A program made the translations under genes and the position numbers. Positions 11,871 through 64,000 of a stretch of DNA of 64,000 nt are shown here, in pieces. The notes below the pieces were generated by a model. The model searched no databases. It was not told where the DNA came from and worked only from the letters and a program-made list of their open reading frames with translations. Numbering within the stretch: the stretch's first letter is position 1; each line of letters opens with the position of its first letter. The stretch is from Apostichopus japonicus. Its lineage: Eukaryota; Echinodermata; Holothuroidea; Aspidochirotida; Stichopodidae. Location: assembly GCF_037975245.1 (NCBI RefSeq), contig NC_092563.1:9127001-9191000 (forward strand). The letters run 5' to 3'.

Positions 11871-11874
11871 TGCT

Positions 11875-29679: not shown

Positions 29680-29699
29680 GTACTAACCATTATAATTCT

Positions 29700-29749
29700 A
29701 ATTTATATATATATATATTTATATATATATATATCTATATATATATATC

Positions 29750-29782
<33 letters not shown>

Positions 29783-40112: not shown

Positions 40113-43100
40113 GGTTCCTTGCTTTTTGCAAAGCAAGGAACCTATGCGTTCAACTTGGCATGTGAGTGTGTGTGTGTGCGTGTGTGTGTGCGTGTGTGTA
40201 TGTGACGCTTGGCTTGTGTACACGATATCTCAATAAGGAAATGATGCGTCATGATGAAACTTGTTGGGTGGATAGCCCATAGTAAGAGGAAGATCCCTAT
40301 TGTTTTTGGTGCCCGCAAAGGTCACCAAAGGTCAGTTAGATGCCAAAAACCAATATATTAAAAACAGCAATAACTCCCATTGACAGGGTCCGACATGGTT
40401 GATATTTTGGGAGTAGTTGTGAATGGGGTAAGGCATCGTTTCCAAACATAACGGTAACGTGATCGAAGGTCAACAAAGGTCAATTAATGATAAAAAACTA
40501 GTATTTTTGCGATAACTTGAGAACGAAATGTCCGTTAAGGTTGGGAGTTGCTTCAATGTAATCCAACTGTCGACCCGCACCTGGGTGACCCTTGACCTCA
40601 ATTTGACCTTTGGTGACCTTTACGTGTTTTGGGGGATTTTTACAGTTTTGATGCTATTTTCAGATGTCAAAGGTACCTTCTGAACATAAATGTCAATAGG
40701 TTGACCCCGTGTGACCTTTATGTGCGAAGTTATATGGGGTCAAAGTTTTTCGGTCGCAGTTAGGATGGTTGCACAGACTTGTCGTTTTGTTTTTTGGAAT
40801 CAGGAGATTAAACTACATCTGAAACCAAGGTCAAAAGGTCAAAGGTCACATTAGAAAAAATGTGCTTATTGTGGGAGGAAACGAGCAATAAAGAAAATGC
40901 TTGGTTTTGATGCTAGATTTGGATACCAAAGGTACCTTCCGATCAAAAATGTTAATGGGTTGACACCCGTGTGACCTTCGTGTGCGAAGTTATACGAGGT
41001 CAAAGTTAATTTTCAGACATTTAATGCAATAACTCCCAGTTCCAAGGTGTGACGTGGTTGATATTTTTGGACAAGTTGCAAATGGTATAGGGGAATATTT
41101 TCAAACTTAACGGTCATGTGATCCGAGGTCACCAAAGGTCAATTAATGTTAAAAAACTAGTATTTTGGGAGGAGAAAATGGGCAAAGAAAAAATGTTTGA
41201 ATTTGTCTAGTTTGATGCTCTATTTAGGTCTCACCGATCAAAAATGTCAATAAGTTGACACAAGGTGACCTTTGTGTGTTAAGTTATATGAGGTCAAAGT
41301 TAATTTTCAGACATTTAGTGTAATAACTCCCAGTGCCAAGGTATTACACGGTTGATATTTTGGGACAAGTTGCAAATGGTATAGGGGAATATTTTCAAAC
41401 TTAACGGTCATGTGATCCGAGGTCACCAAAGGTCAATTAATGATAAAAAACTAGTATTTTTGCGATAACTTGAGAACAAATTGTCCGTTAGAGTTGGGAG
41501 TTGCTTCAATGTAATCCAATTGTCGACCCGCATCTGGGTGACCCTTGACCTCAATTTGACCTCTGGTGACCTCTGGTGACCTTTTTGTGTTTTGTGGATT
41601 TTTACAGTTTCGATGCTATTTTCAGATGTTAAAGGTACCTTCTGATCGTAAATGTCAATGGGTTGACCCCTGTGTGACCTTTGTGTGCGAAGTTATACGA
41701 GGTCAAAGTTAATTTTCAGACATTTAATGCAATAACTCCCAGTTCCAAGGTGTGACACGGTTGATATTTTTGGAGTAGTTGCAAATGGTATAGGGTAATA
41801 TTTTCAAACTTAACGGTCATGTGATCCAAGGTCACCAAAGGTCAATTAATGATAAAAAACTAGTATTTTTGTGATAACTTGAGAACGAATTGTCAGTTAG
41901 GGTTGGGAGTTGCTTCTACGTAATCCAATTGTCGACCCACATCTGGGTGACCCTTGACCTCAATTTGACCTCTAGTGACCTTTTTGTGTTTTGTGGATTT
42001 TTACAGTTTTGATGCTATTTTCAGATGTTAAAGGTACCTTCTGATCATAAATGTCAATAGGTTGACCCCTTGATGAGCTTTGTGTGTGAAGTTATAAGAG
42101 GTCAAAGTTAATTTTCAGACATTTAATGCAACAACTCCCAGTTCCAAGGTGTGACATGGTTGATATTTTTGGACAAGTTGCAAATGGTATAGGGGAATAT
42201 TTTCAAACTTAACGGTCATGAGATCCGAGGTCACCAAAGGTCAATTAATGTCAAAAAACTAGTATTTTGGGGGTAGAAAATGGGCAAAGAAAAAAATGTT
42301 TGAATTTTTATAGTTTGGTGCTCTAATTTAGGTCTCATCAATCAAAAATGTCAATAAGTTGACCCAAGGTGACCTTTGTATGTTAAGTTATATGAGGTCA
42401 AAGTTAATTTTCAGAAATTTAGTGTAATAACTCCCAGTGCCAAGGTGTTACACAGTTGATATTTTGAGGCAAGTTGCAAATGGTATAGGGGAATATTTTC
42501 AAACTAAACGGTCATTTGATCCGAGGTCACCAAAGGTCAATTAATGATAAAAAAACTAGTATTTTTGCGATAACTTGAGAAAAAATTGTCCGTTAGGGTT
42601 GGGAGTTGCTTCAATGTAATCCAATTGTTGACCCGCATCTGGGTGACCCTTGACCTCAATTTGATCTCTGGTGACCTTTTTAGTGTTTTGTGGATTTTTA
42701 CAGTTTCGATGCTATTTTCAGATGTTAAAGGTAACTTCTGATCATAAATGTCAATAGGTTGACCCCCGTGTGACCTTCTTGTGCGAAGTTATATGAGGTC
42801 AAAGTTAATTTTCAGACATTTAATGCAATAACTCCCAGTTCCAAGGTGTGACGTGGTTGATATTTTTGGAGTAGTTGCAAATGGTATAGGGGAATATTTT
42901 CCAACATAACGGTTATGTGATACAAGGTCACCAAAGGTCAATTAATGATAAAAAAACTAGTATTTTTGCGATAACTTGAGAACAAATTGTCCGTTAGAGT
43001 TGGGAGTTGCTTCAATGAAATCCAATTGTCGACCCGCATCTGGGTGACCCTTGACCTCAATTTGACCTCTGGTGACCTTTTCGTGTTTTGTGGATTTTTT

Positions 43101-43898
43101 ACAGTTTCGATGCTATTTTCAGATGTTAAAGACGTGTACCTTCTGATCATAAATGTCAATAGGTTGACCCCTGTGTGACCTTCGTGTGCGAAGTTATATG
43201 AGGTCAAAGTTAATTTTCAGACATTTAATGCAATAACTCCCAGTTCCCAGGTGTGACAAGGTTGATTTTTTTGGACAAGTTGCAAATGGTATAGGGGAAT
43301 ATTTTCAAACTTAACGGTCATGTGATCCAAGGTCACCAAAGGTCAGCTAATGTTAAAAAAGTAGTATTTTGGGGGAGAAAATGGGCAAAGAAAATTTTTT
43401 TGAATTTTTACAGTCATGCTCCCTTTAGGTCTCACCGATCAAAAATGTCAATTGGTTGACCTCCGGGTGACCTTTGTGTGTGAAGTTACATACAAGTTCA
43501 AAGTTAATTTTTTGACATTTAATGCAATTAAATCTCAATGCCAAGGTGTGACATGGTTGATATTTTGGAACAAGTTGTGAATGGGGTGGTGGAACATTTT
43601 GAAACTTAAAGGTCATGTCATCTGAGGTCACCATTGTTATCATATCTGTTGACACGCTTGTAGGTCTCTTATATTTCTTACATTTTTGACGCCATATTTA
43701 GATCTCAAAAAGTGCCTTTTGATCAAAAATCTGATCACATTTTGTGATCACAAAAGTGTTGGCTATAGTGTTGGTTACTTTATGGGAACATGTAGGACCA
43801 CAATTACTTGGACTATTTCAGCCCAATCTTGCTTGATAATATTATGTGTATTGTCATTTACCCCAAGCAAGGAACCACGGTGCCCTTGGGCTCTTGTT
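40113..43898. repeat. 3.8-kb AGGTCA-rich repeat, second copy
   Basis: Same ends as 25581-28944: the 5' hairpin GGTTCCTTGC/GCAAGGAACC and the 3' end CCCCAAGCAAGGAACCAC...GGGCTCTTGTT. Here the hairpin is perfect, and the internal units are arranged differently: the ACTAGTATT (or ACTAGTATTT) marker falls at about 40497, 41156, 41450, 41869, 42258, 42555 and 42956, with spacings of 659, 294, 419, 389, 297 and 401, showing two alternating unit types. I count nine AGGTCA-N4-AGGTCA sites, one with spacer ACAA. It lies 2.3 kb after gene 1. No transposase frame; the 63- to 89-codon frames inside are by-products. Confidence 0.8.
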
Positions 43899-44459: not shown

Positions 44460-44591
44460 CAACTGGCTTAGGTCGATATGGTCAGGAGGGGGAACTGTGG
44501 TGCAGTTACTGCTGGGAAGTCCTCATATGCCAAGTGGACCCATATGGGTGTTCATGTGCAGATGGATACATGGGCCAAGGCTGTCATAATG
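44460..44591 (+). CDS. EGF-like exon 1 of an unidentified gene
   Basis: Acceptor GTCTTCACAG/ and donor AATG/gtaggt enclose 132 nt in phase 1-1. It reads ATGLGRYGQEGELWCSYCWE, then VLICQVDPYGCSCADGY and MGQGCHN. The ending C-x-C-x-x-G-[YW]-x-G-x-x-C is the classic EGF signature. Phase 1-1 exons are usual for EGF modules of secreted or receptor proteins such as the Tie, MEGF and scavenger-receptor types. A following EGF exon lies at 46163. No signal peptide or transmembrane or kinase exon is in reach, so this is a fragment of a gene or a gene remnant sitting between the two GTPase genes. Confidence 0.6.
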
Positions 44592-44700: not shown

Positions 44701-46116
44701 ACGGAGAGCCAAACGTTCCATAAATGTCGAAAAAGAAAGTGAAATGTCCAAGTTAATATACATATATATGTCCAATTCGAAATCAACATGTTACAATTCC
44801 ATATATACATGTCGAAACAAAATAACAATATGTCATTACGTTTATCAATATGTCAAATTCAACATCAGCATGTCGAAAACTTGTAACAGCATGCCACTAC
44901 TTGGCATTTATGCCTCTATGGAAGACCATATAACATATGTGCGTCTGTCTGCTCAGTACCATCTCTACAACATCGGAAGAATACGAAAATACCTCACCAC
45001 AGAAGCCACAGAGCAGTTAATCCATGCTTTCATAACATCTAAACTGGATTAATGCAATGCACTTTTCTGTAGACTACCAGTTAAACAAATAAAACGACTG
45101 CAAAGGCTCCAAAACACAGCAGTAAGGATTGTTACACTAACGAGAACATCAAGTCATATTACCCCAGTATTGCATGATCTTCATTGGCTGCCGGTATCTC
45201 AGCGGATTAGGTTTAAAGTCCTTCTTGTGTTCAAGTGCCAGAACAACATGGTACTTCCATATCTGAAGATCTCATCCGCCCTTATTAGCCAACAAGAGCC
45301 CTACGGTCTGCTGGTCAGAGTCGTCTGGAGGTACCGATCACAAAAAAAAAACCGGCCATGGGAAAAGAGATTTTTGCGTGGCTGGGCCACGCCTCTGGAA
45401 TGAGCTGCCAGCTGAACTCAGAACTGTTTTTAGTCTTACGACATTCAAGTCAAAGCTGGAAACCTTTCTTTTTAGACAGAATTACTGCAATTTTTAAACT
45501 GTTTATTAAATTCTGTTCATGTGCAATACTCCAACAAACTCAAACGTGCATGTTTTTTTTTCATACTCATTTATATTGTATTTTATTCTGCATTTTTACT
45601 ACATATTTTGTGTCATATATATTTTTATTTGCTGTTACATAGCGTTTTAGAGCACTTTCATGGATTTAACGCTTTACAAGATGAATTATTATGTTATTAT
45701 TATACTACATTGATCATGTCAACATTGCTTGCTAGATACAATATTGACGTCATACTATAATGTTGGCACATCGGTGAGCGCCATCGTTTCATGAATACCA
45801 AAACTGTATATATATGTCGAAATTTATATGAGAATGTCCAAAACTTGTGTCAGCATGTTGAGACAAGGAAATAAAATATTCAAGCCGTAGAGATCACGTT
45901 GATGCCTTAGTGCAATTTTTGGGCCCTATGTCTATATTCACATGATTAATTCCTGTGTGGGCAATTGAGCCTTTGAGGTTGCTGCATGTGCCCCGTTACA
46001 GTTAAAAAATGAAGTCGTAGATGGTATTTTGGAAACCGCAATGTCCAATAGGGCCAACACCTCTAAAAGAATTATCCTGCTTTTTGTTAACATTAATGGA
46101 ACGTTTGGCTCTCCGT
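44701..46116. mobile_element. TIR element in the EGF intron (ACGGAGAGCCAAACGTTCCAT ends)
   Basis: ACGGAGAGCCAAACGTTCCA at 44701-44720 is repeated inverted at about 46097-46116. Internal sequence near both ends is full of (C)ATGTCGAAA / ATGTCCAA motifs in AT-rich context. Flanks AATAT on both sides may be the target duplication, but offset gaps make this uncertain. A LINE 3' fragment lies inside. No transposase recognised. Confidence 0.65.
44935..45500 (+). pseudogene. LINE reverse transcriptase 3' fragment (CR1/L2-like), frameshifted
   Basis: Pieces in shifting frames read YHLYNIGRIRKYLTTEATEQ, LIHAFITSKLD, then after a stop CNALFCRLPVKQIKRLQRLQ, VLHDLHWLPVSQRIRFK, and later a WNELPAEL-like stretch near 45405. 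This is the connection/C-terminal region of CR1/L2-type non-LTR elements. It has several frameshifts and in-frame stops, no catalytic core and no endonuclease. Confidence 0.85.
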
Positions 46117-46162
46117 ACAATATGGCAATGCCATTTTGTTCTTTTCTTCCAAGTCTTTTCAG

Positions 46163-46312
46163 AATGCGAACTAGGAACGTTTGGAGCGAATTGTGAGGTT
46201 GAATGTCATTGTGTAGATAACAGCCTCTGTGACTTCATGACCGGATCTTGTGACAGTTCTGGAGGATGCCAGACTAATTGGGCTGGACATACTTGTCAAA
46301 TTTTCACGGCGG
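46163..46312 (+). CDS. EGF-like exon 2 of the same gene
   Basis: Acceptor AAGTCTTTTCAG/ in phase 1, then ECELGTFGANCEVECHCVDN, SLCDFMTGSCDSSGGC and QTNWAGHTCQ. The C-x-LGTFGxNCexxCHC start and C-D-x-x-TG-x-C...GCxxxWAGxxC pattern is the laminin-type/MEGF style of EGF repeat. A donor at GGCGG/gttcta (46312/46313) would keep phase 1 and give 150 nt; otherwise the frame runs to a stop at 46405. No downstream exon is visible before gene 2, so a truncated gene is possible. Confidence 0.6.
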
Positions 46313-46466
46313 GTTCTACATCATCAAAAGACAGTCGACTGGGAAAACTGATTAGACTGATGATATACAAAGAAATTAGTTCTAAACATCTGACAGTTCT
46401 CATGTAATTCCTACAACGCGTGTTCGAGATATTTATTTTGAAGTTGTTATACAGTTTGTACTATAT

Positions 46467-46784
46467 GTGAACTCGGAGCAAACAGGTGTGACGTCATAGT
46501 TGCACATTAAGAGTATAATCACGAAATGTTAAAAAGAAATTGCTTTTTTTTTTTTTTTTTTGATTATTGGATCGGGTTGTGAGCGGGTACGATTGTACAT
46601 TACTCCAATTCAGAGCTTTTTAATGTAGCAATATATATGTATACCCATATTCTTATGGCGTATTGTATTCATACGCGGTTGATCGTATTTTGAAGTAGGA
46701 ATATGGATGTACATTTCACTGAAAAAAATAACAACATTTGCCAATGTGCAATAACAACATCACATCTGTTTGCTCCGAGTTCAC
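46467..46784. mobile_element. Palindromic MITE, 318 bp
   Basis: GTGAACTCGGAGCAAACAG at 46467 is mirrored by CTGTTTGCTCCGAGTTCAC ending at 46784; the inverted similarity extends about 45 bp inward (TTGCACATT is shared). A poly-T tract lies at about 46542-46561. No coding potential; target duplication not clear. Confidence 0.75.
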
Positions 46785-47134
46785 TTATGTAAGTACTAAA
46801 CGCATTAAACTTCTACTGTTGTTTTTGTCGCAACCATACACTCAAGCTTACACACCAATTAATTACTTAGCTACATGCAGCAGTAAACAAATTTGAATTT
46901 GAATTCGTTAAAATAGTTTGTTAAACACTAGAAACTTTGATGCTGAGTCCTAAAGTTGATTTTATTCGGTGGCACTAAAAGCCATCTCCTACAAGTGTTT
47001 GTAGTTTCGACCCAGATCATTATCTTAGTATATAAACTCAATATTTAGTATCTTTAAATGCTTTAACTTTTTATATGCACCGGAATGCAATCAAACTAAC
47101 CAACATATCCTTTAAAACGCAATATAAAGAAAGG
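46785..47134. other. Spacer without recognisable gene
   Basis: AT-rich; nothing supported. Confidence 0.4.
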
Positions 47135-47660
47135 GTAAAGTTGCCACTGCTACATTGGTCACCGCTATCATTTCGTCCCGTCTGGTTTATGTAAATAGCC
47201 TGCTGTGTGGACTCCCCAACTCTACAACTCGCAAGCTGGAAATTGTTCAAGAAAATGCTGCTCGTATAGTTTATAAGAAAAGGAAAAGAGACCATGTCAC
47301 ACCACTATCGGAATCACTGAATTGGCTACCAATAGATTTTCGAGTGAAGTTTAAGCTAACCTACTCACCTACAAAGCTCTGCACGGTCATACTACCTGTC
47401 TTGTCTCCTTACACTGTACAAACCTAGCAGAACCATACGGTCGTCATCACAGGATTTGCTCAATGAGAAGAGAACAAGACGAAGACCGGCGACAGAGCGA
47501 TTTAATCTTTGTGCATTTTACTATATTACTACTAACTTAGTTCCAGTTTTCATTGAGTACAATGACAGTGTTGACATTGGTGGCGCCAAGGAGGCATTGG
47601 GCTCATTTATCACCCGTCATCCGCCACACTACATTCAGGTGCGGTTAAAAAGAACTGGCT
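47135..47660 (+). pseudogene. Second LINE reverse transcriptase 3' fragment
   Basis: Reads IISSRLVYVNSLLCGLPNST, TRKLEIVQENAARIVYKKR and LSESLNWLPIDFRVKFKLT, the same C-terminal RT region as the fragment at 44935 but of a different element. Frame is lost near 47370, and only short scraps continue. No catalytic core. Confidence 0.8.
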
Positions 47661-47934
47661 CACTTTGTCGTCTAAATTTCCTATATTTGGGCAATATATA
47701 AAGCCAACAAAATGCTTCACATTTCGGAGGCTTGGCCACATGGGCCCGCATAGGCTTTGAAATACATTCCAACTGAATTGTAATCTCTGGATGTATGTCT
47801 CTGCTTTAGTTATCATAGCTATAAGAGAAATGTCTGAAAGCACTGCAGCTTCCGCGCTTGGAAAACCTTTCACAGAAATGAAGTTCATCGTTCAGATAAG
47901 TGCTTTGGTAATTTAAAGTAAGTTGTTATGAGAT

Positions 47935-48125
47935 AACAATATTAATATCGAACAAGGTCTAAAAGCATTTGTACTTACTCAACCATCACGGCCTCTTCAC
48001 GGTGATAAAAGATTATTTTTAAAGTCAGTGGCTATGGGAGAACAATATTAATATCGACCAATATCTAACATCATCTGTACTTACCCAAACATCACGGCGA
48101 TAACAGATTATTTGTAATATTAGAT
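47935..48125. repeat. 105-bp tandem duplication upstream of gene 2
   Basis: AACAATATTAATATCGA at about 47935 recurs at about 48040, followed in both by similar sequence through ATCACGGC and GATTATTT. It lies about 250-450 bp before the gene 2 ATG, so it could affect its promoter; this is unproven. Confidence 0.7.
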
Positions 48126-48381
48126 ATCTTAGGACCTTGCATGCGAACAGCCAGTATATTGACCTATCACTACCGTTTACTTGGGAGTATCTTGTTTGCC
48201 TATATCTGTCCATTCTTGATTCAGAAAGGTGCAGTTTGTGCGATAAATATAGCCTGCTGTAACAGCGACACAAGCTTGGTATGTCATGTTGTGTGTTAGT
48301 ATATGAAACAATTCACAGGACCCGTTGTTGCGGTATAATGTAAAGCAACACATTTCAACTACATCTGATCAACGTCAAGCA

Positions 48382-48405
48382 ATGGGGGGCGCAGCAAGTA
48401 AAGAG
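48382..48405 (+). CDS. Gene 2 exon 1: MGGAASKE, N-myristoylation motif
   Basis: ATG in acceptable context (AGCAATGG), eight codons, then a consensus donor AAAGAG/gtaagc, phase 0. The peptide MGGAASKE fits the N-myristoyltransferase pattern: Gly2, small residues, Ser at position 6 and Lys at position 7. A lipid anchor would place the GTPase at membranes. A TATAAT-like stretch near 48335 is the only candidate core promoter feature. The exon is short, but the motif, donor and phase agree with exon 2. Confidence 0.6.
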
Positions 48406-49500
48406 GTAAGCTTTGGGATCACATTGTACTTTAAAGACGTCATGATTGATTGACTGTGTTTAAAAAAAGTTATGAATCGAGTCGATAAATTTCAGGAGTA
48501 AAATGAGAAAATAAAGTGTCTCGAATCTATGATTCGAGTCAGAGCGTTAACACTGGCAGTGATCCGATTCGACCTGCAATGAAGTGGTTGACTTGTTAAA
48601 ACTTTGTTGTTTGAAACTAGATACGGGAGAGAACTTGGATTCTGTTATAGACAGATTGACTATAATATCAATACATATTCATATGAAGGCAAATTTCTAG
48701 ACAACTGAACTGGAACTAACATGATCATTAGCAAATGGAATCCACTCGCATGATCATGTCGCTCAATGTTTGTAATTAATCACATGCTTAATCTAAAGGG
48801 TGAGAATCCAGAATGTTCAGGGTGATCGCTAAGTAGTTAATTTAATTCGTATATTGAACAGTACGGGAGATTCTCACAGTAGTTCCTACCAGAGGACATC
48901 TTCGATCTATTTGTGCATTTTGTTACACGCCTTTCTAATAGTCACGTTACAGAAATTAAGCAGTTTGGTTTCGCCCAAATTGATGAAGATTAGGCTACGT
49001 GCATGCCCTGCGAGAAACCACTTTTCATCTCCTGTTCATGGTTGATGAGTGTTGTTACCTAGTCAGCCTCTCCTGCTGCTGATGTCATACATAAGCTTAA
49101 AGTACTGTAACGATCATGTGGTACTTTCCAATGTGGATCTATACTTACCTGTTAACAATAAAATGTCTTCAGTGTTTAGCTCTACCTTTGGATATCGTAT
49201 TTATTTTTTGTTGTTGTTTTTTGGAGAGAAACGGGTGGTGGTCGGAGCAGAATTTAACTCCTTTTAAACTCCACTAAATTTAAACTAAAGGGAGACCGTT
49301 TAAGCTTTATGATGAACTATTAAACTAAGCGGGTGCGAAAGATATCCATGGAAGTACTAGCAATGGGTATGACTAAAACATTCTGCCCACATGAAACGCG
49401 AAACGAGGCTACGTTGCCGATTGACCATAAGTGGCTGTCATCACTAAACGTGGGTGGAATGGCTCATTGATTGATGGTTTATGTGTTCAATTTTTTTCAG

Positions 49501-49528
49501 ATTAAACCATCCTTAGGCAGGAGCCATG
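49501..49528 (+). CDS. Gene 2 exon 2: short basic exon
   Basis: A long pyrimidine tract and CAATTTTTTTCAG/ acceptor, 28 nt, and a consensus donor CATG/gtaagt. It runs from phase 0 to phase 1 and encodes IKPSLGRSH plus a split Gly. Both splice sites are strong for such a small exon, and the phase shift converts exon 1 into the phase-1 series that follows. A GGAT microsatellite starts right after the donor. Confidence 0.6.
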
Positions 49529-50481
49529 GTAAGTATGGATGGATGGATGGATATGTAGGTAGGTAGATAAAGGTTATACATGTATCTTGCATTTCATCTG
49601 TAAAATATAAATTTTTTCGAAGAAACAATAATAGTAAGTATGGAGGGGACTCAATGCATAGGCCCTATGTTTAATTTTATCCCAAGACATAATATCTGCA
49701 ATTGATCTATTGTGATGTTCACTTGATTGTTTAATGTTACAATTTACTATTCCTGTTATCTATCACATTATCAATTGTATTTTTGGTCATGGTAAACTGC
49801 GAACGGTGGTACATGTTCCGATCCATGTGCTGGAGAATGAACAGAATTTTGAAAACTCGAAAACTAACCTCTATTTTTGGGAAGCATTACAAAAACTGAA
49901 AATCCCTTCCACTCTATACGACGTTGTGCTCTTTTAACATGCTTCCGTATATTCGACATGACATAAAAAGTACCTGTTTTCTAAACCTGATAGGGTAATA
50001 CTATCGATTCCCTTTTTGCGGCTTTCTATAGGAGTTCGTTTGGTATAACGCGGTGGGTAAATTAGGGACAGGAAGAAAAAGAAAAGGTTTGGGTGGACGT
50101 AAATTGGATATAATTAAACTGTTTTTGACAAATGTCCTTGTACATCGAATTACATTCATTGTCGTTCATGCCTGAGGTTTCTCCGAAATATATATTCCTT
50201 TAAAAGAGCAACATTTGGATAAATATCTTTGTAAAGTTGCTATATTGACATACAATCTTTGCAATAATTTTTTATTACTTTGTAAAGAGACCGACAACGA
50301 CAAAAAACGCTCAGCCTATTTGCAATACTGACAAATTGAGACATGTTTAGCACTGTAACTGTTTAATAATAATATATAGCAGAGACTGGCACAGGATTAA
50401 AGTTATTCAAAACTAGGTTAATTAATATCTTGGGTGGTAGACCATCTTTAACAATGTTTGCATTTGATATGTTTGTTTCAG

Positions 50482-50870
50482 ATTCAAAGAGTACCAAAAA
50501 GGCACTAACGCATCAAATAAACACATTAAAAGACAAAGTGCAGGAACTCTCTCACAAACTAACTGAATCAGACTATGAAAAACAACAGCTCACTGGAAGA
50601 CCAAATGAGGTGAGACAACGATTCAATGATAAACTAGCAATATCAGAAGGTGAAAAGCATCAAAATATTGGAAGACTTAAATTTGCAGAGGAAGAGAGAC
50701 GTCTCAGTGATAAAGTTACAGAATCAGAAGATAAGAGACAACACTTTATAGGACGTTTGAATACAACAGAGGAGGAAAGGCAACCATTTAAAGATACATT
50801 GAATACAACTGAGAACAAGCTGAAGACACTGAAGGATGAGACGGAAGAATTACTTCAGCAGCAGAAAGAG
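50482..50870 (+). CDS. Gene 2 exon 3: coiled-coil domain
   Basis: Acceptor TTTGTTTCAG/ opens 389 nt in phase 1, ending at AAAGAG/gttaaa in phase 0. It encodes about 130 residues starting DSKSTKKALTHQINTLKDKV, almost all charged/heptad-like, with a degenerate repeat of about 20-25 residues marked by (I/T)GR(L/P) (QLTGRPNEV, QNIGRLKFAEEE, HFIGRLNTTEEE). A long dimerising coiled coil is the clear reading. The donor is non-ideal (gttaaa), so the exact end is less sure, although the phase fits exon 4. Gene 1 has no such exon, a structural difference between the paralogues. Confidence 0.65.
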
Positions 50871-52045
50871 GTTAAACTCCACATAGCATGTGATTATATA
50901 TATCCGATGACCGAGTTACTGTACCTGACTTGGTTCATGAGAAAATTAGTCATTATGAACAAGATTACCATTCTGCCTAATCTAGTAGTGTAAAGTGACT
51001 TTGTTATTTATCATTTGTAACACAACATGTATTTTCAGCAATTAGGGAATGTTTATGATGTCCAACAGTAGAGATGAAATGATGAACATATTAAGGGCTC
51101 TTTGTCTCAAGAATTGTATACAAGCATGATATTTGTTTATATGATGAAAATTAATTCTATATGTATGAATAGAGGTTAGGCCTAGTAACATATGTATGAA
51201 TAGAGGTTAAAGGTTATTTGATGTTCAGAGAGGTCAATCGACACATGTTTTATGCACAGGTGAAATGCTTTAATCCCTTTATTTCAAAGAACAGAACTTT
51301 CAGAGATTATTCATTTCATAGTGGAATGCTATTTTAAAGAGGACAGCATACTGCATTGTTCTATTTGTTACTAAACAGGAATTCTTCATGTGCTGCGGCA
51401 CACTATGTAGTAGATTAAAGCATAGCATGGGACTTATTGAACATTAAAACAATGTATAAGTAATTAATTTAATTGATAAAAATGAACGTCTGTCCTGCAA
51501 TGTGATAGGTCTACATTCCTCCTTGTAGAACAGTAGTTCCACCGTTCATAGAAGTTCCTTTTGAAGGTTAGGTCTGCAATTTCAGCGCTAAATTATTGTG
51601 AACATGTAGTTTTCTCTGAGCCAGGAAGTAATTTGCCAATAGTCATACCTCAAGTAAAGGTCAAAAGGTTATCATTTCAGCCTGCTTCAAAATAAGTATG
51701 AAGACATTTGTCAAGTTGAATAATGTGTTAGCTTCAGACACAGAGTACTTCAATGTTCGCATAGACTTTAATTTGTGGCAAGTAGTTAAAGGTGTTACAA
51801 GGTGACAAAATAATCTTGAGCTTTACCGAAAAAGTTCAATGAGTTTAAAACAAAAATTAAAACTCATACTACATTTGATTACAAGTAGTGAGTGTGAGGA
51901 AATTCAGCTATGCTGAAATCAGTTGCTTCTATTAGCTAAAAGCTTAATTGATGTAACTTGACAGGTGACGGAAAGGAAACTGAGGTACTTTTTTAATGTG
52001 TCAGTACACCATATAAGATAACTTTCCTGTGTTGTTTGTTTGCAG

Positions 52046-52130
52046 ACTTCCTCCACCTCTGTTACGGAGGAAGACACCCTACTTGGAGAATGTGAAACTC
52101 TAGACAAATCACATCAATCAACTTTGGCAG
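52046..52130 (+). CDS. Gene 2 exon 4: acidic linker
   Basis: Acceptor GTTTGTTTGCAG/ and donor TTGGCAG/gtagga enclose 85 nt from phase 0 to phase 1, reading TSSTSVTEEDTLLGECETLD, then KSHQSTLA. Acidic, Ser/Thr-rich, probably disordered. It returns the frame to the phase-1 series so that the linker exon at 54022 can follow. Confidence 0.6.
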
Positions 52131-54021
52131 GTAGGATCACAATGAAAAGATAATTGCTACTGATCCTTGTAAATTTGTAATAATGTTTCCTTACGTAAGT
52201 CTGATGATCACTAAATAGTCCTACCTGCAGATCTTCAAAGCTACCAGGGGAGATGTAAGAAGAGGGGAAGGGGGGCGGCGGGGGGGGGGATTGGTAACTT
52301 GAGTCAATTTAAGTAGTGTAGGATGGATTTCTTTACCTTATATGCATATTTATGTCAGTTCAGAGCAAGAGTCCCATGTGAAATCATTTGGAGGTCAAAC
52401 TCATAGAGATCCCCTCCTAATGTCCAACACATTACTGAACTTCTGTGAGACTGGATATTCGGCAAGAAAGAAAACTGAATGTTCTTACGCTTTTTTTGTA
52501 GTGTATGCATATCATGGATGCAGCTCAGGCTTTAAGTTGTTTTCATGAACTCACCGACCAAAGACAATCAACTAACATGCACATACTTCAAAAAAGTGGG
52601 GAAGGGGCTTTGTGGTAATTATACCATATATTATATCATAGCGGACCAAATTTGCAAGGACATACGGTGCATGCCGTGCAGCACGGTATATATACGAACC
52701 GATAAAATGTACATCAACTTTCCCATTTGCGCGCGCGCGGCGCAGTGTTGATATTTGGTTTTACAAAATCTGATTGGACAATAAGTCAATCCTTACAACA
52801 CTGACCGACCTTTATTTGCACCACGTGACTTGATTCGATCGGTTTGATTGGATAAATTCTGTAAATCTAAAACACGATTGCCTCAAGTTTAAGACCCTTA
52901 AGACCGCTTAGATTTCAGTCCATTTTCAATCAATAGATTGTAAAGTACTGTCAACTCTTAGATACGACTGACTTTGTCAATCTTATGAAGTAAGAGAGTA
53001 TGTGATATGGAACATCACGTATAGGTTGTGCAATTGTGGTCATGAACCGCAGCACCTGACACAAACGTGACCAACTGGCATTCAGGAAAACGCAACATGT
53101 TGGGTGCCGGACCGACTGAAGCCGACGCGACTTAAAACTGATTAATATCTTGATACTAAGGACCGGCGGCACCGCACACTGTCCCCGCCCATTATAGTAT
53201 ATTCGTATAGGGCTACCGTAGGGTCAATACAAGTTCAGTGACAATGTGAGAAGTAAAATTCATGGTGGTTTGTAAGGTATCTGATTAGTTGTATTGCCTC
53301 AGTTTGCTTGTGTCACATGCAGCGACATCCCATGCCAGAGTACTTGAGTAATTAAAGCGCTGTGAATTTTTTTTATTACACTGCTTTATTACCGTACATA
53401 CCATATTCAACACCAGAGGAGTCCACGTGTTTTTCATGATGTTTTGTTTTGTTTGTGTTTAAACACAGTTATTATTCCAACACGTTTCTCGATTTTTTGT
53501 TATTCGTGGGGGTATTTGTTTTGGTCACGGACCTCCAGATTTGAACAGTTAGGTCTCAACACTGTTACAATACTTAATACTTTCCACGGATAACTTGTCT
53601 AGGATACCATTAAGCTAGGGTATACATTTATGTCATTCAGATTAAGTTGTACCATATTCCCAAACAATTGGATATCCCTCAATCTAAAAAGATAATTTTG
53701 TGATTTCAAATGTTTCGTTTACCCTGAATAGCGGTATCGACAATTTTATTCAATACAGACATACAATTTAATCATTCTTAGAATCTTGTTTTCAGTTACA
53801 CGGTCTTTAATCCTTAAATGGTTAAGTTAGTTGCAACTAGATTGTGGCAATTTGAACGCAAATGGCTCCTTTCAAACTTAATTCTGTCACGTAATATTTG
53901 AACAGATTTCGTGCCAATATAAGTATTCATCACAATGATTTGTTTATGTAAACTTATCTAAGTATGCGCATAACTTAACATTTAACGATTATTTCCCCTC
54001 TGTATACGTCCTTCCATTTAG
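52131..54021 (+). other. Gene 2 intron 4
   Basis: It contains a G-tract near 52268-52290, a CG-only stretch at about 52729-52742 and AT-rich filler. From about 53495 it becomes collinear with gene 1's intron (25120 onward) but lacks the 3.4-kb AGGTCA repeat: the uninterrupted site is around 53928-53950. Confidence 0.6.
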
Positions 54022-54111
54022 AAAATGCAACGCCAGGACTAACGTCGACCAATGAAGAAAGCAACTCTGTCGATTTTCAATCCTTACCTGCCATTTCGCT
54101 GTGTGCCAACG
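54022..54111 (+). CDS. Gene 2 linker exon (30 codons, phase 1-1)
   Basis: Acceptor CTTCCATTTAG/ and donor CAACG/gtatta; 90 nt reading ENATPGLTSTNEESNS, then VDFQSLPAISLCAN. Counterpart of gene 1 L4 with identical boundaries. It is the only intact member of the linker family in gene 2. Confidence 0.7.
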
Positions 54112-54519
54112 GTATTAAACGACTATCACAACCTATTAACATAAAACTTGTAGCTTAAACAATGCGATTCTCAGTTTATCCCACTCTTATATATAGTAGA
54201 CATAATCATGCATATTTTGAGTCATACAGATCATCTAATGAGTTCAAACCCTTGTTATAACCTCCATCGGCTGTCACTCTGACCATGCAAACAGCGTCAC
54301 CCTAGTTAGTACGTCGTACGAATTATGTCAGACATTTTTATATCTTAATAGCTTATGACTGCTGTCACGAACATAAATTAGGCAAGGGCGTATCATGTAT
54401 GGAAGCTATTTTCATGTTCATGAATAAATGTATTCACGTATTTCAGCATTAAAGTATTTAATTCTGAACATTGCATCATACTAAGGACGTGCTTTCTCCC
54501 TACATTTCACCTCATGCAG

Positions 54520-54526
54520 AAAGTGC
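54520..54526 (+). pseudogene. Remnant of a second linker exon, destroyed by (AT)n
   Basis: The acceptor region (CCCTACATTTCACCTCATGCAG) and the first seven exon bases AAAGTGC match gene 1 L5 at 29590; the sequence then becomes (AT)n until about 54620. The rest of the exon and its donor are gone. Since the lost exon was phase 1-1, splicing from 54111 to 54998 keeps the frame. Confidence 0.75.
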
Positions 54527-54527
54527 A

Positions 54528-54595
<68 letters not shown>

Positions 54596-54630
54596 AATAT
54601 AAATATATATATATATAAACATTTATATAT
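54527..54630. repeat. (AT)n microsatellite
   Basis: Nearly pure AT/TATATG repeat, the expanded equivalent of the tract that in gene 1 begins after the linker exon at 29703. Confidence 0.95.
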
Positions 54631-54997
54631 ACTAATGACTCGTATAACCCTCTTCTTTGATTATATGTGAAAGTGAAGATAATTTCAGGTAAACGTATGT
54701 CAAATTATGCAAACCTGGCGCGATGAATTAAAAGGCATGATTTTTGGATCAACTTCATACTTTCATACTTTCAGCAAATTTAGTGGTCAAAGACTGGCCT
54801 AAAGACTGAACTAATTGAAGCCAAAATAACTTGACAAGCTACAATGAATTTCATTCGTGATATGTAGGTCCACATAAGTGTACGTTTCCCGCTGGTATAC
54901 ACTAGACAAAACTTGAAAATTAACTGCTTAATTGTTGTAGAATAATGAATGAAAAATAAAAACACTAAACGTATTGGCTTTCTGTTTTTCCATCAAG

Positions 54998-55345
54998 GAT
55001 TTGAAATGAAGGACGTTTGTAAATCTGGGAAATTCAAGATCAAACCGTTTCGTTTGATGGTACATGGATTAGAGAAGTGCTTAGATAATGGTGCCGTTAC
55101 TGAACTTGCTCAACTGACAGAACAAGATCCTGACTTTGTGCTGAAAGTTGATGATTTACGAAAGCCGTTCCACCATCTTATGGCCAACTGGGAGAAGGAA
55201 GGTATTGTCAAAGAGGATGATGTAGATACATTGGTGGAACTACTGAACGTGTTGGAGGCATATGAAGCATTGGATCTAGTAATGGAGTACCAGGCATCGT
55301 TCGGCGATGAATTGACAGAAAACAGAGTTTCTTCTAAACCACAAG
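54998..55345 (+). CDS. Gene 2 DED-like domain exon
   Basis: Same splice sites, phase (1-1) and length (348 nt) as the gene 1 exon at 30513. It begins GFEMKDVCKSGKFKIKPFRL and keeps the helical core with VHGLEKCLDNGAVTELAQL and LVELLNVLEAYEALDLVMEY. About eight residues differ from gene 1, mostly conservative, some at the C-terminal tail (GDELTENR). The open frame extends 5' into the intron to an ATG at 54949; the acceptor CCATCAAG and the phase favour splicing. Same DED-like reading, with the same caveat that the fold is inferred from a hydrophobic pattern. Confidence 0.75.
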
Positions 55346-56366
55346 GTCAGTTTGCAGGATAGTGATACATGATTGAGTCTACCCGAATGTTTAGTCCTCT
55401 ACCCAACAATGGTTGCGTGATGTACGTCAAGTGAACATGCTAGAAACGATGTTGAGTTCTACTAGATCGATAAAATTTAAGTCCATCTAAGTAGAAAGTA
55501 ACAACAATTGACTTTTCCCCAATAGTAAGGCAATTTTAAAATTTAAATACAAACTGCTCTGAAGATGATTTGATAGAACCCAGAGCAATATAATATCAAA
55601 GTGAATAAATCGAAGGATTTAAAAATTTTTGAAAGACAAACCTTTAAAACTGTACCTCAGTAAGGTATACATTTAAAAACACATACCCACAATCATCTAT
55701 GAAACCAAAATAATTTGAAGGGTCCTTAATGATAGTTTGAACATATCCAAATGGCGGATTTATTATAAGTGAGAAGCTTACGAAAACAAGGAATTAGTTT
55801 AACCGCCTTCCGATGCCACAACCTATTGTTGCTGAATTCCTGAAAATTCTAACTAATTTTTGTACTTTATGTAAATCAAAACGTTACAACCCATGTTAAA
55901 GTTTCAGTATCAACTGTTCAGCTGATATATACTACACCCCTCTCATGAAAATTAATTTGGAAACATCTGAGTTATTTTTTATTCGTTGTTTAAAGCATTT
56001 AATAGAACCATTTATCCCACAACTGTTAGTAGCAAGAAAGCAGTTTACAATGTGGTTTAGAAAAATCACATGTAGCTTTTATGCTTTTAAAGAGTTTTAT
56101 ATACAGTGCATATGAACACTTGATGCACCTGATATTGCACAACGATGTACAACGCCATTTCTTACCAGACAAATCAGATGATCGAGTCAATGGATGTATA
56201 TTATACTGATGACCGTGTAGTACCACACCAGCGAAATGTTTCCTTTCAATGATATAGCCTACTATGTTTGGTTGGAGACATGAGTGGTAGTTATTGATGA
56301 TCTGGATTTCGTCTTTGTGTATATATTTTATGAAATATTGTGTATTTTGTTTTGTTTTTCTAACAG
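55346..56366 (+). other. Intron between DED-like and GTPase exons, gene 2
   Basis: About 1.02 kb, collinear with 30861-31887. Small indels only; no gene or inserted element. The frame of the next exon is open from an ATG at 56294, but the acceptor TTCTAACAG indicates this part is intronic. Confidence 0.65.
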
Positions 56367-59300
56367 ATATCAAACCTTCTGTTCAGTGTTCTAGTCCAAG
56401 AAAAGCTGCCACAAACATCCCATCACAGGAACAGGAACAACATAGAACATCATCCGCAAGACCACGGGAGACATTCCAGAACCCTACAAGAATCAACCAT
56501 CGAGGCAAGAAACCAACTCACACAAAAGAACAGGTGTTATCTGTTCTTCAATCGCTTGGCATTGATCTAGATTGTGGTAAACAGTTAAACGTTCTTAGTA
56601 GCATGACCCTGGAAAGCATTCATCTTTGTGAAGACACCGTATCCCCTGAATGTCTTGTTACGGCATTTTTAAGTCGTTTGATGTCATACGATTATCGTTC
56701 ATTGCGACTCTTTAAGGAACATGAAGAGATCAACATGATTCTGTCAGTGGCCCCATATGCAAATAATAACTCTTATTCGTCTGATTCTACGAACACAGCT
56801 AGACTGAGTTGCAGAGATATTGTGTCTGCCATTATTATACATTGCGATCCTTTCCTTAGGCAAGAGGTTTTGTCGAAAATGTCTGCTTGCCAGCTGGCTG
56901 TTCCAGTGATTCTTCCACAATCAACTACGTCTGACCCTTTGTTTCTTTTATGGGGACTTCAGAAAATATCGAAAGCATGGAAGGACCCGTCAACTTCCCT
57001 TGTGAATGAAGTTAATGTTACACAATTTCCCTTTCCGATTGTAGCTGCAGTGCGTTTCGGTAATCCTGGCTTCTCAAAGTCGAATACCTTGAACAAACTG
57101 ATAGGTTCTGTTCAAGGTAACGACGAACACCCGTATTTCTGCAGCCAAGAACAGGACATCGCTCCTTCCATTTTATCCAGAGGGACAGTAGAGGCGGTTT
57201 GGTACCTTCCAAGTGATCGTAAAAGTCGTAAATATACCATTGAGAAAGCAGTTTGCTTCCTAAACCTCCGCGGAGATGCAGTAGAGTCCTCATCCCAGTT
57301 TGATTTTCTATGTACTTTTGCATCGATCACTTTAGTGTTTGTCAACAGAAGAGATGTACAAAGGATGTTGGTCCAACTTAACGCCATTACCCGGAAGAGC
57401 CAAGTACTGCTGATTTTGTCCTCCAATGGGACATTAGTTCCAAGATGGAAAGAAGATGAGTATGTGGTAAACTCTATCAGGGCAATAGGAGTAGGTGTCA
57501 TAGACACGTCACAACTTTCACAGATCGATGTTTGTGAAAAAATCTGCGATCAGATAAAGGGATTGCTCAATGAGGTAAAAACGCCCCCAGTCAACCTTCA
57601 CAATACAGAATCATATTGTGCAAACAACGGTTTTGTAGTTGATATATCGTTCCAAGATTGTTCAAAGGCAAAACAGGCCGCCCTAAACATATTACAATCA
57701 TGCAGAGATGACCCAAAAGGGTACAAACCGAAAGCACTTCCTTTGCAGGTAAAATGGCAAAAATGGTCGCAACTTGACAAAGACCGAAGTTGGAAAGGTG
57801 CACAAGGTAACGTAGAAAAAGAGCTTGCTATGTTGCACAAAGCTAAGAATGCAGTGAGACAACAACAGCGTGACATTGGTATGTCTAACGAGATGCGTTT
57901 ACTGTATGAAGAACTTTTGAGTTCCTCTTCGGATTACAAACAGTTTTTGGTATTTTTGCTTCAACACATTTTAAATGAGGTCTCTATTGAAAACTTACGT
58001 CCAGTTCTAGGTGAGATGAAGGCCACTAGAGATGAACTACGAGAAACCGCTGCAAAGGTCACAAATGTTCAAAGAAGACTAAATGTTTCTTCCATTCCTG
58101 CGCAGGAGAAAAGAGCTTTGCAGGATGATGTTAGAAAATGGAAGTCCAAAGAGTCTGAGTTGCAGCAAAGTCTATTGGAGAAGACTAAGACATTTGACGC
58201 ATCTTCTTTAGGTTTCGAACATTTCGTGAGGGAATTCGGCCAAATATATGAGTGCTTCCATAACACTGAAAAAAGGAATCAACAAAACATAAGAAAGATA
58301 TTTGATGTAAAACTAATACCGCAAATGGCTGCTGAAATGCTACTCAGTGGCCACCCATTAGAAATTTTTGATGGCGATGCGTGTCATGTACCCATCAAGT
58401 GGGTAAAAGGAATCTTAGCAGCGGTTCGCGGAATTATTGGTGACGCATCTGTTTATGTAATTTCAGTTATCGGCATACAAAGCAGTGGTAAGTCTACCCT
58501 TCTCAATAGCATGTTTGGAGTTCGATTTGCTGTAAGCGCTGGAAGATGCACTCGGGGAGTGTTTATGCAGTTGTTACCAATAGCTGATTCCCTAAAGGAA
58601 GAAATTGGCCGTGACTATATTGTTGTTATAGATACGGAGGGCTTGAAAGCACCTGAGAAAGCTGTTACGGAACGCAAAAGTGAAGACAATGAGCTAGCGA
58701 CCTTTGCTTTATGTCTCTCCGATATGACTCTGATCAACATTGGAGGGCAGACTGTTGGAGAAGACCTGTCTAACATTCTTCAGATATCTGCACATGCATT
58801 CATAAGGATGAAGGAGGTTCATCTAAGGTCATCTTGCTACCTCCTACAGCAATTTGTGGCTGACGTAACCGCCCAATACCGAAATCAGAGCAGCACCCAA
58901 AGCATACTTCAGAAACTTGATCAAGCTGTTATCACCGCCGCAACAGAAGAAAGGAAAGAGGATCAATACAGACAGTTCTCAGACTGTTTCAACATTGTCA
59001 ACATTGACAACAAAGAGGATAATGTGCAGTACATTCCCAGCCTATGGAGGGGATCAATGTCGTCCCCCAATCACGACTACAGCGAGACGGTGCTGAAACT
59101 GAAGTCCGCTCTTTTAAGAGAAGTGAAGGACAGCACTAGACCACAAAAGCTCTCAGACTTTGAGGAAAGAATTAGCAGCGTTTGGAATGCAGTGAAACAG
59201 GAAGACTTTGTATTCAACTTCCGGAACACGACCGAAATCTCACAATACAACACATTTTCCCAAATGTTTAAGAGACTACAGTTACGTCTTAATCGGGAAA

Positions 59301-62284
59301 TGATGAAGTGGGAACTTGAAGCGAAGCAACAAATTCGAAATTCAACTGTCGAGAATATTGAAGGACGGAAAGGAACTTTACTATTAGAACTTGAACATAA
59401 AATGACTGAAGAAATGAGCGAAATACGAGCTACCATTGGCGAAACATTGCAAGAACGAGAATTTGAGAGTGTTCGACACCATTCCACTTTTTTTTACCGT
59501 GATTTAGATCTTTTCGAAAAGAACATTCTAGACACGGTGAAGAAAATGATACAGTTCGAATCCGATATCATCGGCAACGCCACAGTGAAAGAAAACCAAA
59601 TTCTACCAAAGCTTAAGGCGGATTTGCGGAGACAAATTCTTCCGGTTGCAGAAAAGCTGCAAAACGAATTCCTGCAAAGTTACAGTGGTAAGTCTAAAGA
59701 AGAAATATATGAGCAAACAGAAGAGCTCGTGAAGACAACATTTGAAGAAGAGTGGTCCAAATGTATGAGGAATATCGAGCTTGTCCATCCGACAAAAAGT
59801 GAAGAGCGAATTCGGCAAGACATTGAAGCTGACATTTATAGATGTGTCCAGGAGTGTCTGCAACGTAGTAGTCATAGTATGGCAATGAAAGATTTATTGA
59901 ATACACACAGCCTTCAAGGACTTTGTGAAATGACCCCACCTATGAAATCTGAAAGAGATGCAGAGGAAGCATTTCGACTAATAGGACCATGCGATAGAGA
60001 AATGACGAAGTTAGTAGCTGTCTTGCTTGAATCTGTTGAAACGGCATGTGGCAAAAAAGATTTTCAGTTTTCTGAAGAATTCTTGGACAAGGTCAGAAGG
60101 TCACTGGCGAGCATCGTTTCAAAGCATTGCCCAGGATGTAGAGATAAAACAGCTTTGATAGTTATCCTGTCTTGTAACATTGTGAAATCTGCAAATGTCA
60201 CACACAAGCAAAACATTTTGAAAAAGATCATTCAGAAACGGGAATTATTGAACAAATTAAAACAATTTGACGTATGTACGGAGTGGAAAATAAAAGAACA
60301 GTTAACTGCGTGTCTCAAAAGTGAAAAATTGAACTGCGCTTCGAAAGGCACTTTGAAGAGATTGACTAATTGGGTAATAACAGACATGTTTGGCTGGGGA
60401 TCAGACAACAGTGACGAAAATTTCTTGAACAAAGTTCGTGTTAATCTTCATGAAATCACGTCAAGAGTAGACGGAAAGAAGTGGTATTCGTACGAAGCAA
60501 CACGGGATTTCGTTACAATGGTTAGTGAACTATTGAAAACATTGTGTTCGACGGATAAAAAAAAACGTGAGCATCTCCAGTGCGAAGCGTGTGGTTTTTA
60601 CATTCAAGAAGCCGTTCGCTCTGAGATGGATGCTCTAGCTGATCGCGTATCTTGGAATGAAGTGCAAGCATATATGGACATTTTCTCTGTAGACATCATC
60701 GATCAAATGACAAAACTGGTTGCTACTGTCAAGGATCTTGTGCCTGTTGAAGTGGTTGAAATGTTAGTTGGCCTGTCAGAAGAAAACATTCAGAAGTTTG
60801 CCAATATGGTACCTACGGGGGACACACGACACACACTTGATAAGTGCTTCATGATGGAACTACCAATGCTAGAGAGGCAAGACGTCCATATTGTATTATC
60901 TATCGTGGCAGAAGCACGTCAGACGTTTCTTGCGAAGATCAAAAGCAATGGGTCGTTCAATTCCACGATAATGAGGGATATGATTACTTCAATTGACCAG
61001 GAGTTGAGCGCACGTAGAGAATTGGGCCAACAAGAACAAATCGTTGCTATTGCATACTTGTGCTCTTGGGCCTTCCCTATATGTGTTGATGTTCAAACTA
61101 CATTTGAACGTGAAAACAGTGTAACGACGTTACTAGAAAAGGAAAAACACCCTTTGTATCAAGACTTCAAGACGTTATGTGACGGTACATGCAAGGATCA
61201 TATGGCGGCTAAATCGTTTAGCTCTATCATCGAGGAATCTCTGAAGCAATGTCTACAGAATCGAATCTGCACAGCAATGTTTGAGCGATTGAGTAAAGCT
61301 GGCGATGAAATATTCTGCAGCAGACCTCGTTTCTTAAAAGCCGTTTTAGAGAACCTCTGCGAAGAAGAAGATTTTGAAAATTATATTGATTTTCTTAGGC
61401 GACACTCAACATTCCTGCAAACATGGACTTTATCTTTTATTGCCAAAGAATGCTGTGTAGAAACAGAGAATTTTATTCGAATCAAAGATATTGCAATGCA
61501 CGAAATTGGTGAAATACTGAGAGAGACGGGAGAATCACTGGATGCAACATTGCGTTCTTTGCGAGCAGAAAGTGAAGGCGACATTTCCTTTGAAAAGTGG
61601 GTTGAGACCTTTACCGAGTATTTTGAGACATCAGTAAAGTCATCTTTGAACGAAGAAGATATATCTGAAATGAACATGTACACAGTTATAGCCGACTATG
61701 ACGTGTTTGGTGCAGAATGTAAAAATCTTGTTCAGAATACTATGCAACCGAAACTGTTGCAACATGCGGAACTTCCAGATACTAGCTGCATCGAAAATAT
61801 CAAGGAATGGTTTGAAGGCCTTCCCAAACAATTGCATATTGTTCTAGCTCACGCGATGCAGGGATGTGGAACCCAGTGTCCGTTTTGTAAGACGCTTTGT
61901 GACGACACCGTTAAAGAACACAAAGTGCATTTTTCTAATCTACATTTTCCAATTGGTGTTGGTGGTTGGCGAGATCGTTATAGTACACAGCTCGTATGTG
62001 ATACTTGTACTGCAAACGTCGCATCAAGCAGAATGTATTACACATGTCACTGTCTAGGACGAACGTGTGCACATAGTCCAAAACCATACAAGGAATACAG
62101 AATTGATTATCCGGAGTGGGATATCAAACCAATCTCGAATTATGAAGCAACCCTTTACTGGAAGTGGGTGCTTTCGCGGTTTAACGACGACTTTGCAAGG
62201 TACTACAATTGCAAAAGGGCTTCCATTCCATGGGGAACAGTTACAAAGGAAGAGGCCCTATCAAGCATAAGAAATGATACTTGA
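56367..62284 (+). CDS. Gene 2 giant exon: VLIG/URGCP-type very large GTPase
   Basis: A 5,918-nt exon, the same length as in gene 1, to TGA at 62282. Degenerate first G domain with GNPGFSKS at 57059-57082 and NLRGD at 57263-57277; active G domain with GIQSSGKS at 58472-58495 and DTEGL at 58631-58645; long helical region; C-terminal CGTQCPFC and YWKWVLSRFNDDFARYY. Against gene 1, divergence is patchy: about 10 amino-acid differences over the 529 residues spanning the active G domain, but about 40 in the next 235, and about 15 in 59 residues of the Cys-rich tail, where every Cys shown is kept. Intact. Probably a GTP-binding, assembly-forming cytosolic or membrane-tethered protein, by family. Confidence 0.93.
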
Positions 62285-64000
62285 ATTCGATAGACGTTCG
62301 GGCATAGGTTATATGCGTGGCATGGTTAAATATATATTTTCGGGTTTAACTAATAACAATGGGAGGGATCGACCCAGTAGAGGGAGGATATGTGTGTAGG
62401 CATATATGTGCGTGTGTAGGAGGAGTTGGGGTGGGTGCAATCGTTGCATAACAGTCGTGGCTTTTTGTAGAACCGATTGAGATTACAGGAAGAAGTAAAA
62501 TATGTTCAAAAAAAAATAATGTATTTCAACATCTAGTCGAAAATCAAAGGTCCCTGAGTTTATTTTAATTAACTACTTAGGTTAATTATTTTTTACACTA
62601 TTGACTCTGGGCAAACATGGATGGGATAATAACAACATTATTCTTACCAAGACTATTTCCGTGAATGGTATGAATAATTTCTGACTGTAATCGGAATCAC
62701 CATTGTACTAAAAATCGATTATTTTCTTTTTAAGAACGTTTACGTTAACATTTCAATTGTTTGTGCAAGATATTATCCCTTAAAAGTTATCGATGTTATC
62801 GGTTTCCAAATTCAAAACCACATTTGTAAGTCATTACAAATTTCTACAACGTGGAATGGTACTTTATCACACGACTCCATTACAGTTTATCAGACACGCA
62901 TCCAAACTTAGTTTAAGGACTGTCTTTGTTTAATAACTTATACTGCAGCAGTATATTTTAAAATCTTTACGACATTTATTTCGTAACAAGCTTGTTTTGA
63001 TTTCATATTAAACTTTTCGCTATTGAGTTTATGTCTGGGTTTCGATGGGACCTACTTAATAGTTAATATCAAGGAAATCACTTTCGAGCAAGGGATGTTG
63101 AATTATATTAAGAAGACATAATTAAATACATCTCTTTCACAATGTTTTCGTCGTTATAGCATATATGGGAACAAAAGTCACCATAATTTAATATATAACG
63201 TAATTTACTTAATTCAATAACTTGCACAGATAGCACTAGCTTGCTTTCGTATGAAATATTGACACTGTTTGGTCACTTGATGGTTGATACGCCAAGGAAA
63301 GTAACTTTTGCCGTCATGTTTACCTGTGATTTGCGTGTGAATGTGACACATTAGGTTGTAGATATGTTGTCCCATTCAAGAATCTCTTCCAGGTGGCAAG
63401 TTTGACACATGTCTAACATATTTAGGTGAAAGGTTATCTGTTGTTAATTAAAAATAAGTAATTTCATTGACAAAATAAATTCAAGGGAATGGTTGATATG
63501 GCTTATTGAGGTTTCATTTATATAGGCCTATCTATGTAATCTTTATGGTTATCTGGTGTAATACGTGATTTTGCAAGTAGACAAATCCCTTCCAAAGTAC
63601 GTTAATTTTATTACCAACTCTACAGTTTGTTTAACGGAATACCATTTCTTCATGTTTATGTAAGGGAAAAGATTTATGTATACTTGCTGTATTTCTCATA
63701 AATAGGTAAACCGGTTGCGGCAGAAAAAAAACTATTAAGGACTTCAATGTAATGTTTGATATCTACCCGACGATTCGTAAAGCTGGGTTAGGTTTGGTAA
63801 GCCGGGTTTTGTTCTTCTTCATATAACAGTGTTACATAGTTAGACTGGACTTAGTTGGTATGATTAAATAGCCATAATGTGTGGGAAAAAACTTGCAACG
63901 TATTTTATTACATCTTTGGCTGTCTTGGAATGTACGTTTGTATGGTTCTAAGTATGGTGGAAACATTGTGAGTAACAATGTTGTATTGAAGGGCAAAGAT
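62285..64000 (+). other. 3' flank / probable 3' UTR of gene 2
   Basis: Collinear with 37806-39590, with small indels, including about 100 bp near 62730-62900 not seen in gene 1. First AATAAA found at 63474-63479, at the position homologous to the gene 1 candidate. No further gene before the window ends. Confidence 0.35.

Follow-up and report, generated by a model that had tools for sequence, protein, structure and literature searches.

The VLIG/GVIN proteins are interferon-type GTPases of which little is understood, and a stretch of 64,000 nucleotides from the sea cucumber Apostichopus japonicus (contig NC_092563.1; hereafter the window, with a GC content of 38%) raises the question of whether a member of this family can carry an acyl anchor, a coiled coil and a death-fold domain ahead of its GTPase body. 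The window contains two VLIG/URGCP-type giant GTPase genes in tandem, both on the + strand and here called copy A and copy B. Copy B (48382-62284, + strand) is one open frame when read as seven exons joined in phase: 2293 residues (about 262 kDa), with the only stop at the very end, and with AG/GT at all internal exon borders. The six exons upstream of the giant exon contribute about 321 of these residues. Four of the seven exons had been named in an original prediction, together with the coordinate 52130, and all were placed correctly and in the right phase; exons 49501-49528 and 54022-54111 are additions to them.

A tandem pair of giant GTPase genes

The GTPase body of copy B lies within one exon of 5918 nt (exon 7, 56367-62284, + strand, entered in phase 1 and read to the stop), which encodes URGCP and URGCP_GTPase domains and a C-terminal Cys/His-rich region. 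In Pfam it matches URGCP_GTPase (PF25683) with an E-value of 5.6e-101 (338.6 bits, cut-off 55) and the N-proximal URGCP family (PF25496) with an E-value of 6.4e-58 (196.9 bits, cut-off 27), followed by weaker matches to RHD3- and GBP-type families, and Sey1 (E 6.8e-8) is the only PDB sequence that it matches at E 0.01. The second nucleotide-binding loop is canonical in copy B, with GIQSSGKS followed by DTEGL, and a CPFC motif is present too, whereas the first loop is degenerate and departs from GxxxxGKS in both copies (GNPGFSKS in copy B, GIPGFSKS in copy A). No relatives were found in viral or prokaryote collections, where animal genes are not expected. The giant exon of copy A (31888-37805, + strand) aligns with that of copy B without a gap or stop and matches PF25683 with an E-value of 8e-103. 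Thus, the earlier call of a VLIG/URGCP-type exon of 5.9 kb stands far above the Pfam cut-off in both copies, and the assignment of the gene to the VLIG/GVIN-family giant GTPases is strongly supported by its domains.

Comparison of the two copies shows what has been conserved since their duplication. Over 1971 aligned codons without a gap, the giant exons differ with a dS of 0.102 and a dN of 0.034 (dN/dS 0.328), and dN is lowest in the GTPase domain (0.008) among the six sections of the giant exon compared. The section with the highest dN/dS comprises residues 906-1400, after the GTPase domain (59084-60568 in copy B, 34605-36089 in copy A; 0.583 vs 0.181 in the GTPase domain). Upstream, the death-like exon of copy B (exon 6, 54998-55345) has a counterpart in copy A at 30513-30860 (+ strand), with a protein 93% identical and no stop, a dS of 0.105, a dN of 0.030 and a dN/dS of 0.284. 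Because both copies are intact, free of stops and indels, and show a dN/dS of about 0.3, the death-like and giant exons are taken to be real and under constraint. The introns adjoining the death-like exon are 88-89% identical between the copies, and the similarity as a whole runs, in pieces parted by insertions, over 53484-63962 in copy B and 25119-39576 in copy A.

The block also includes exon 5 of copy B (54022-54111, + strand, phase 1 to 1), a Ser/Thr-rich cassette of 30 residues whose counterpart in copy A lies at 29019-29108 (+ strand). Exon 5 is phase-symmetric, so the chain of copy B stays open with or without it. Copy A has four related Ser/Thr-rich cassettes, all in the same phase (23593-23685, 24244-24330, 29018-29110 and 29589-29681), a small array with two members in a local 700-base duplication, while copy B shows one. 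Three of the copy A cassettes, when compared, share 74-76% identity in the exon vs 28-43% in the 60 bases on each side, the pattern expected of selection on the exon.

Several other features share the window. Two segments of about 5-6 kb (4305-9699 and 13316-19599) form a further direct duplication, in pieces 86-94% identical, and a fragment of a mobile-element reverse transcriptase lies at 11864-12613 (RVT_1, E 1.5e-16). A satellite-like repeat with a spacing of about 399 bases forms blocks at 25839-28689 and 40366-43633, one of them between the candidate exons of copy A. Between the GTPase genes there are Cys-rich EGF-like stretches at 44462-44590, with no Pfam match, and at 46162-46299, with a marginal match to EGF_STAB1-2 (E 0.027).

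Codon use and splice sites upstream of the GTPase

The upstream exons were assessed by a codon score trained on the giant exons and compared with open non-coding windows of equal length. None of 17 such windows scored as high as the coiled-coil exon (exon 3) and none of 24 as high as the death-like exon, windows of these lengths being few; the corresponding counts were 2 of 1690 for exon 4 and 28 of 1593 for exon 5. In their codons exons 1 and 2 look no different from non-coding sequence, 949 of 5379 and 3021 of 5094 windows scoring as high. Splice-site matrix scores place the best two donors of the copy B chain on exons 1 and 2 (6.2 and 6.6), and its weak donors are at 50870 (-0.9) and 54111 (-1.2), which end exons 3 and 5. 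Donor 54111 is retained in the related cassettes, as gtatta in four of five and gtacta in the fifth; donor 50870 has no comparable support. A stronger in-frame donor lies inside the coil exon at 50609 (score 5.7). Nevertheless, all three thirds of the coil exon are coding-type, their scores being reached by 11 of 1103, none of 1036 and none of 981 non-coding windows, whereas the stretches flanking its borders are of non-coding type (reached by 586 of 1526 windows on one side and 634 of 1219 on the other), which favours the weak donor 50870 over 50609. An unguided exon scan (acceptor above 4, donor above 3) picked up exons 2 and 4, the latter as its top-scoring candidate apart from the giant exons, and missed exons 3, 5 and 6 because their splice sites fall under its thresholds.

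The start of the copy B chain

Exon 1 (48382-48405, + strand) opens with the ATG, in a context with G at both -3 and +4, reads MGGAASKE in phase 0 to 0, and ends in the donor gtaagc. The strict N-myristoylation pattern asks for Gly2, Ser or Thr at position 6 and Lys or Arg at position 7. MGGAASK fits it and is the sole strict match among the 1721 open ATGs of the window, counted on both strands as ATGs that run through eight codons without a stop; 18 of them fit the loose pattern. When only candidate first exons that have a donor are considered, the strict fits number 1 of 205, 1 of 77 and 1 of 32 at three donor thresholds (the middle figure for donors of 3.5 or more), and the one is always exon 1. 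Exon 1 also ranks best of the three listed first-exon candidates that would feed exon 2 from 45000-49400, one of which has a stop. Both the pattern and the splice context therefore support the predicted N-myristoyl signal that had been claimed for this exon, and its peptide looks like a good N-myristoyltransferase substrate, the acylation itself being a prediction.

Exon 2 (49501-49528, + strand, phase 0 to 1; acceptor 7.5 and donor 6.6 by the splice matrices) adds a basic linker, IKPSLGRSH. Residues 2-26 contain six Lys/Arg vs two Asp/Glu, and this basic stretch could serve as a second membrane signal. Cys is absent from the first 60 residues of copy B, which makes palmitate unlikely as a second lipid there.

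The shortness of exons 1 and 2 and their non-coding-type codon use suit another reading, in which the main transcript arises from a different promoter, for example in intron 2 (with ATG 50454 running into the coil exon) or further downstream, and yields a VLIG with the coil and the death-like domain but with no acyl anchor. Ahead of the coil exon its frame indeed stays open as far upstream as 50373 and contains ATGs. However, the stretch 50373-50480 has a codon score of -4.0, non-coding-type as noted above for the upstream flank, and the best donors of the chain and the myristoylation pattern all sit on the exons that such a transcript would omit. We consider this reading rather unlikely. A start within the death-like exon is disfavoured in another way: copy A has Arg in place of its first Met in copy B, and it is preceded by a conserved cassette, so that translation probably starts upstream of this exon.

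A second alternative concerns exons 1-4 together, which might lie outside the GTPase gene, as a separate coiled-coil gene or a tandem-duplication remnant, in which case copy B would use first exons other than these, and copy A may do likewise. The duplicated block starts at 53484, between exons 4 and 5, and no second copy of exons 1-4, the coil exon included, was found within the window by blastn or tblastn. Upstream of copy A there are only weak candidate exons, at 22337-22469 and 24951-25103, both open; their codon scores are weak (62 of 981 and 35 of 700 windows as high), and neither resembles exons 1-4 of copy B. Against a separate gene, phase is kept at every junction up to the death-like exon, exon 4 (52046-52130, + strand, phase 0 to 1, a Ser/Thr/acidic linker) has the phase-1 end required for entry into exons 5, 6 and 7, and exon 4 leads the unguided scan after the giant exons. 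Such a separation of exons 1-4 thus appears distinctly improbable, and the seven-exon chain from 48382 is retained below.

A coiled-coil exon

Exon 3 (50482-50870, + strand, phase 1 to 0, with the weak donor gttaaa) encodes about 130 residues for which a coiled coil had been claimed, and its heptad periodicity bears this out. Its hydrophobic residues recur with a 3.5-residue period, the Fourier power being 14.46 at 102.9 degrees, a value equalled by none of 2000 shuffles, whereas 277 of the 2000 shuffles were as high at 100 degrees and 439 at 105 degrees. The best self-match of the exon falls at an offset of 14 residues, that is, two heptads. In a weaker and cruder control, its best single 28-residue window was equalled by 9 of 300 shuffles. 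Beyond about residue 40 of exon 3 the best heptad register changes. A coiled coil is well supported by the periodicity of the predicted protein, and we read it as being broken once.

A probable death-fold domain

The death-like exon of copy B (exon 6, 54998-55345, + strand, phase 1 to 1) had been described as DED-like, and the profile searches sustain this description in part. The trimmed domain matches Pfam Death with an E-value of 1.6e-4 (22.2 bits, cut-off 22.6), over positions 40-83 of 86 and hence over the second half of the profile only, and Pfam DED with an E-value of 1.0e-3 (19.7 bits, cut-off 35.9), over positions 1-71 of 82. Both scores lie under the Pfam cut-offs, but these two death-fold families are the top two of 24,736, in one register and in both copies, and no further Pfam family matched at an E-value of up to 1. 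Among ten control strings (nine shuffles and one reversal) none matched a death-fold family or gave anything comparable, the best chance match having an E-value of 0.082.

Searches beyond Pfam fit less well and lend some weight to the proposal that the exon encodes a helical, VLIG-specific domain other than a death fold. A PDB sequence search with exon 6 gave no death-fold chain among its matches, the best being designed ankyrin proteins (E 0.0053, with no single stretch passing alone) and THO2. Structure prediction, put forward earlier as a check, gave an AlphaFold model that is helical, as far as a two-sequence alignment and a mean pLDDT of 61.9 (low confidence) allow, and the structure searches with it returned unrelated proteins and no death fold in the best 50 of 160 Foldseek matches and the best 50 of 264 VIA-align matches. 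The sub-threshold Death and DED scores point the same way. Set against them are the joint ranking of the two death-fold families in both copies and the silence of the control strings, and we hold a domain of another fold to be somewhat unlikely. Exon 6 is thus probably a death fold, Death/DED-like in character, whereas it has not been established as a DED proper.

A possible coat-forming platform

Taken together, these features suggest that copy B could encode a membrane-tethered, dimeric, death-fold-bearing VLIG whose N-terminal assembly module couples a coat to death signalling, a reading to which we give about an even chance and in which the anchoring and the signalling are inferred. N-myristoyltransferase would acylate Gly2, and the myristate, with the basic stretch that follows, would provide a weak hold on membranes, while the coil would make the protein a dimer. 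GTP-driven assembly of the LG domains on a microbial or vacuolar membrane might then cluster the death-like domains, which could recruit a death-fold partner, either an adaptor or a caspase. In this way a coat like that of GVIN1 would be coupled to cell-death or inflammatory signalling. A role as an immune membrane platform is drawn by analogy with GVIN1, IRGB10 and zebrafish Gbp4.

A bolder version is more speculative and, in our view, unlikely as a whole. It holds that the acyl-anchored, coil-dimerized and death-fold-signalling GTPase is a single-polypeptide platform resembling an inflammasome or death complex, that its coat nucleates death-fold signalling at membranes, and that unequal recombination within the intron preceding exon 5 has exchanged its N-terminal module between the tandem paralogs. 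Such an exchange would go with the finding that the window showed no coil exon for copy A.

If the simpler reading is true, GTPases of this kind could signal directly to death-fold partners, and the N-terminus would be a small testable module of about 320 residues that predicts both a site of action and partners. It would also form a parallel, in a different family, to the fish GBP-CARD fusion. Should transcripts confirm it, the architecture would link the coating of membranes with cell-death signalling.

Comparison with known systems

The family of this gene is known, but its N-terminal architecture was not found described in the literature searched: none of the literature matches listed concerned a VLIG that carries an acyl anchor or a death fold, in a search with most subscription journals and unreviewed protein databases outside its coverage. 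Predicted proteins of like architecture may already be present in public databases without having drawn comment. Each part on its own has a precedent among related immune GTPases.

The nearest relatives are the VLIG/GVIN proteins, such as human GVIN1 and URGCP, which share the URGCP and URGCP_GTPase domains and the very long single coding exon, present here in tandem copies. Human GVIN1 forms coats on cytosolic bacteria and has been modelled with two LG domains and a helical linker between them; this coat role comes from a 2025 preprint, which calls the function of the family enigmatic until then (PMC11974893). GVIN1 differs in that its gene is described as having no introns and a longest frame of 1808 residues, whereas copy B has six upstream exons, and in the main text of that paper the words myristoyl, prenyl and coiled each occur zero times (PMC11974893).

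Two further systems resemble the N-terminus of copy B. Mouse IRGB10 is an immune GTPase whose N-terminal myristoylation is reported to be important for recruitment to the pathogen membrane, a likeness to the signal predicted here, but it belongs to the IRG family, and the account of it in PMC7815755, as far as it bears on IRGB10, describes no death-fold domain or long coil (PMC7815755). Zebrafish Gbp4 is a dynamin-like immune GTPase fused to a death-fold domain, a counterpart to the domain predicted here; its GTPase activity is required for defence, and a form that lacks the CARD fails to reach the Asc speck (PMC4932187). However, Gbp4 is a GBP with a C-terminal CARD (PMC4932187), whereas copy B is a VLIG in which the predicted domain is N-terminal and Death/DED-like. 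Judged from its predicted protein, copy B thus appears to join in one chain the signs of features otherwise seen in GVIN1, IRGB10 and Gbp4.
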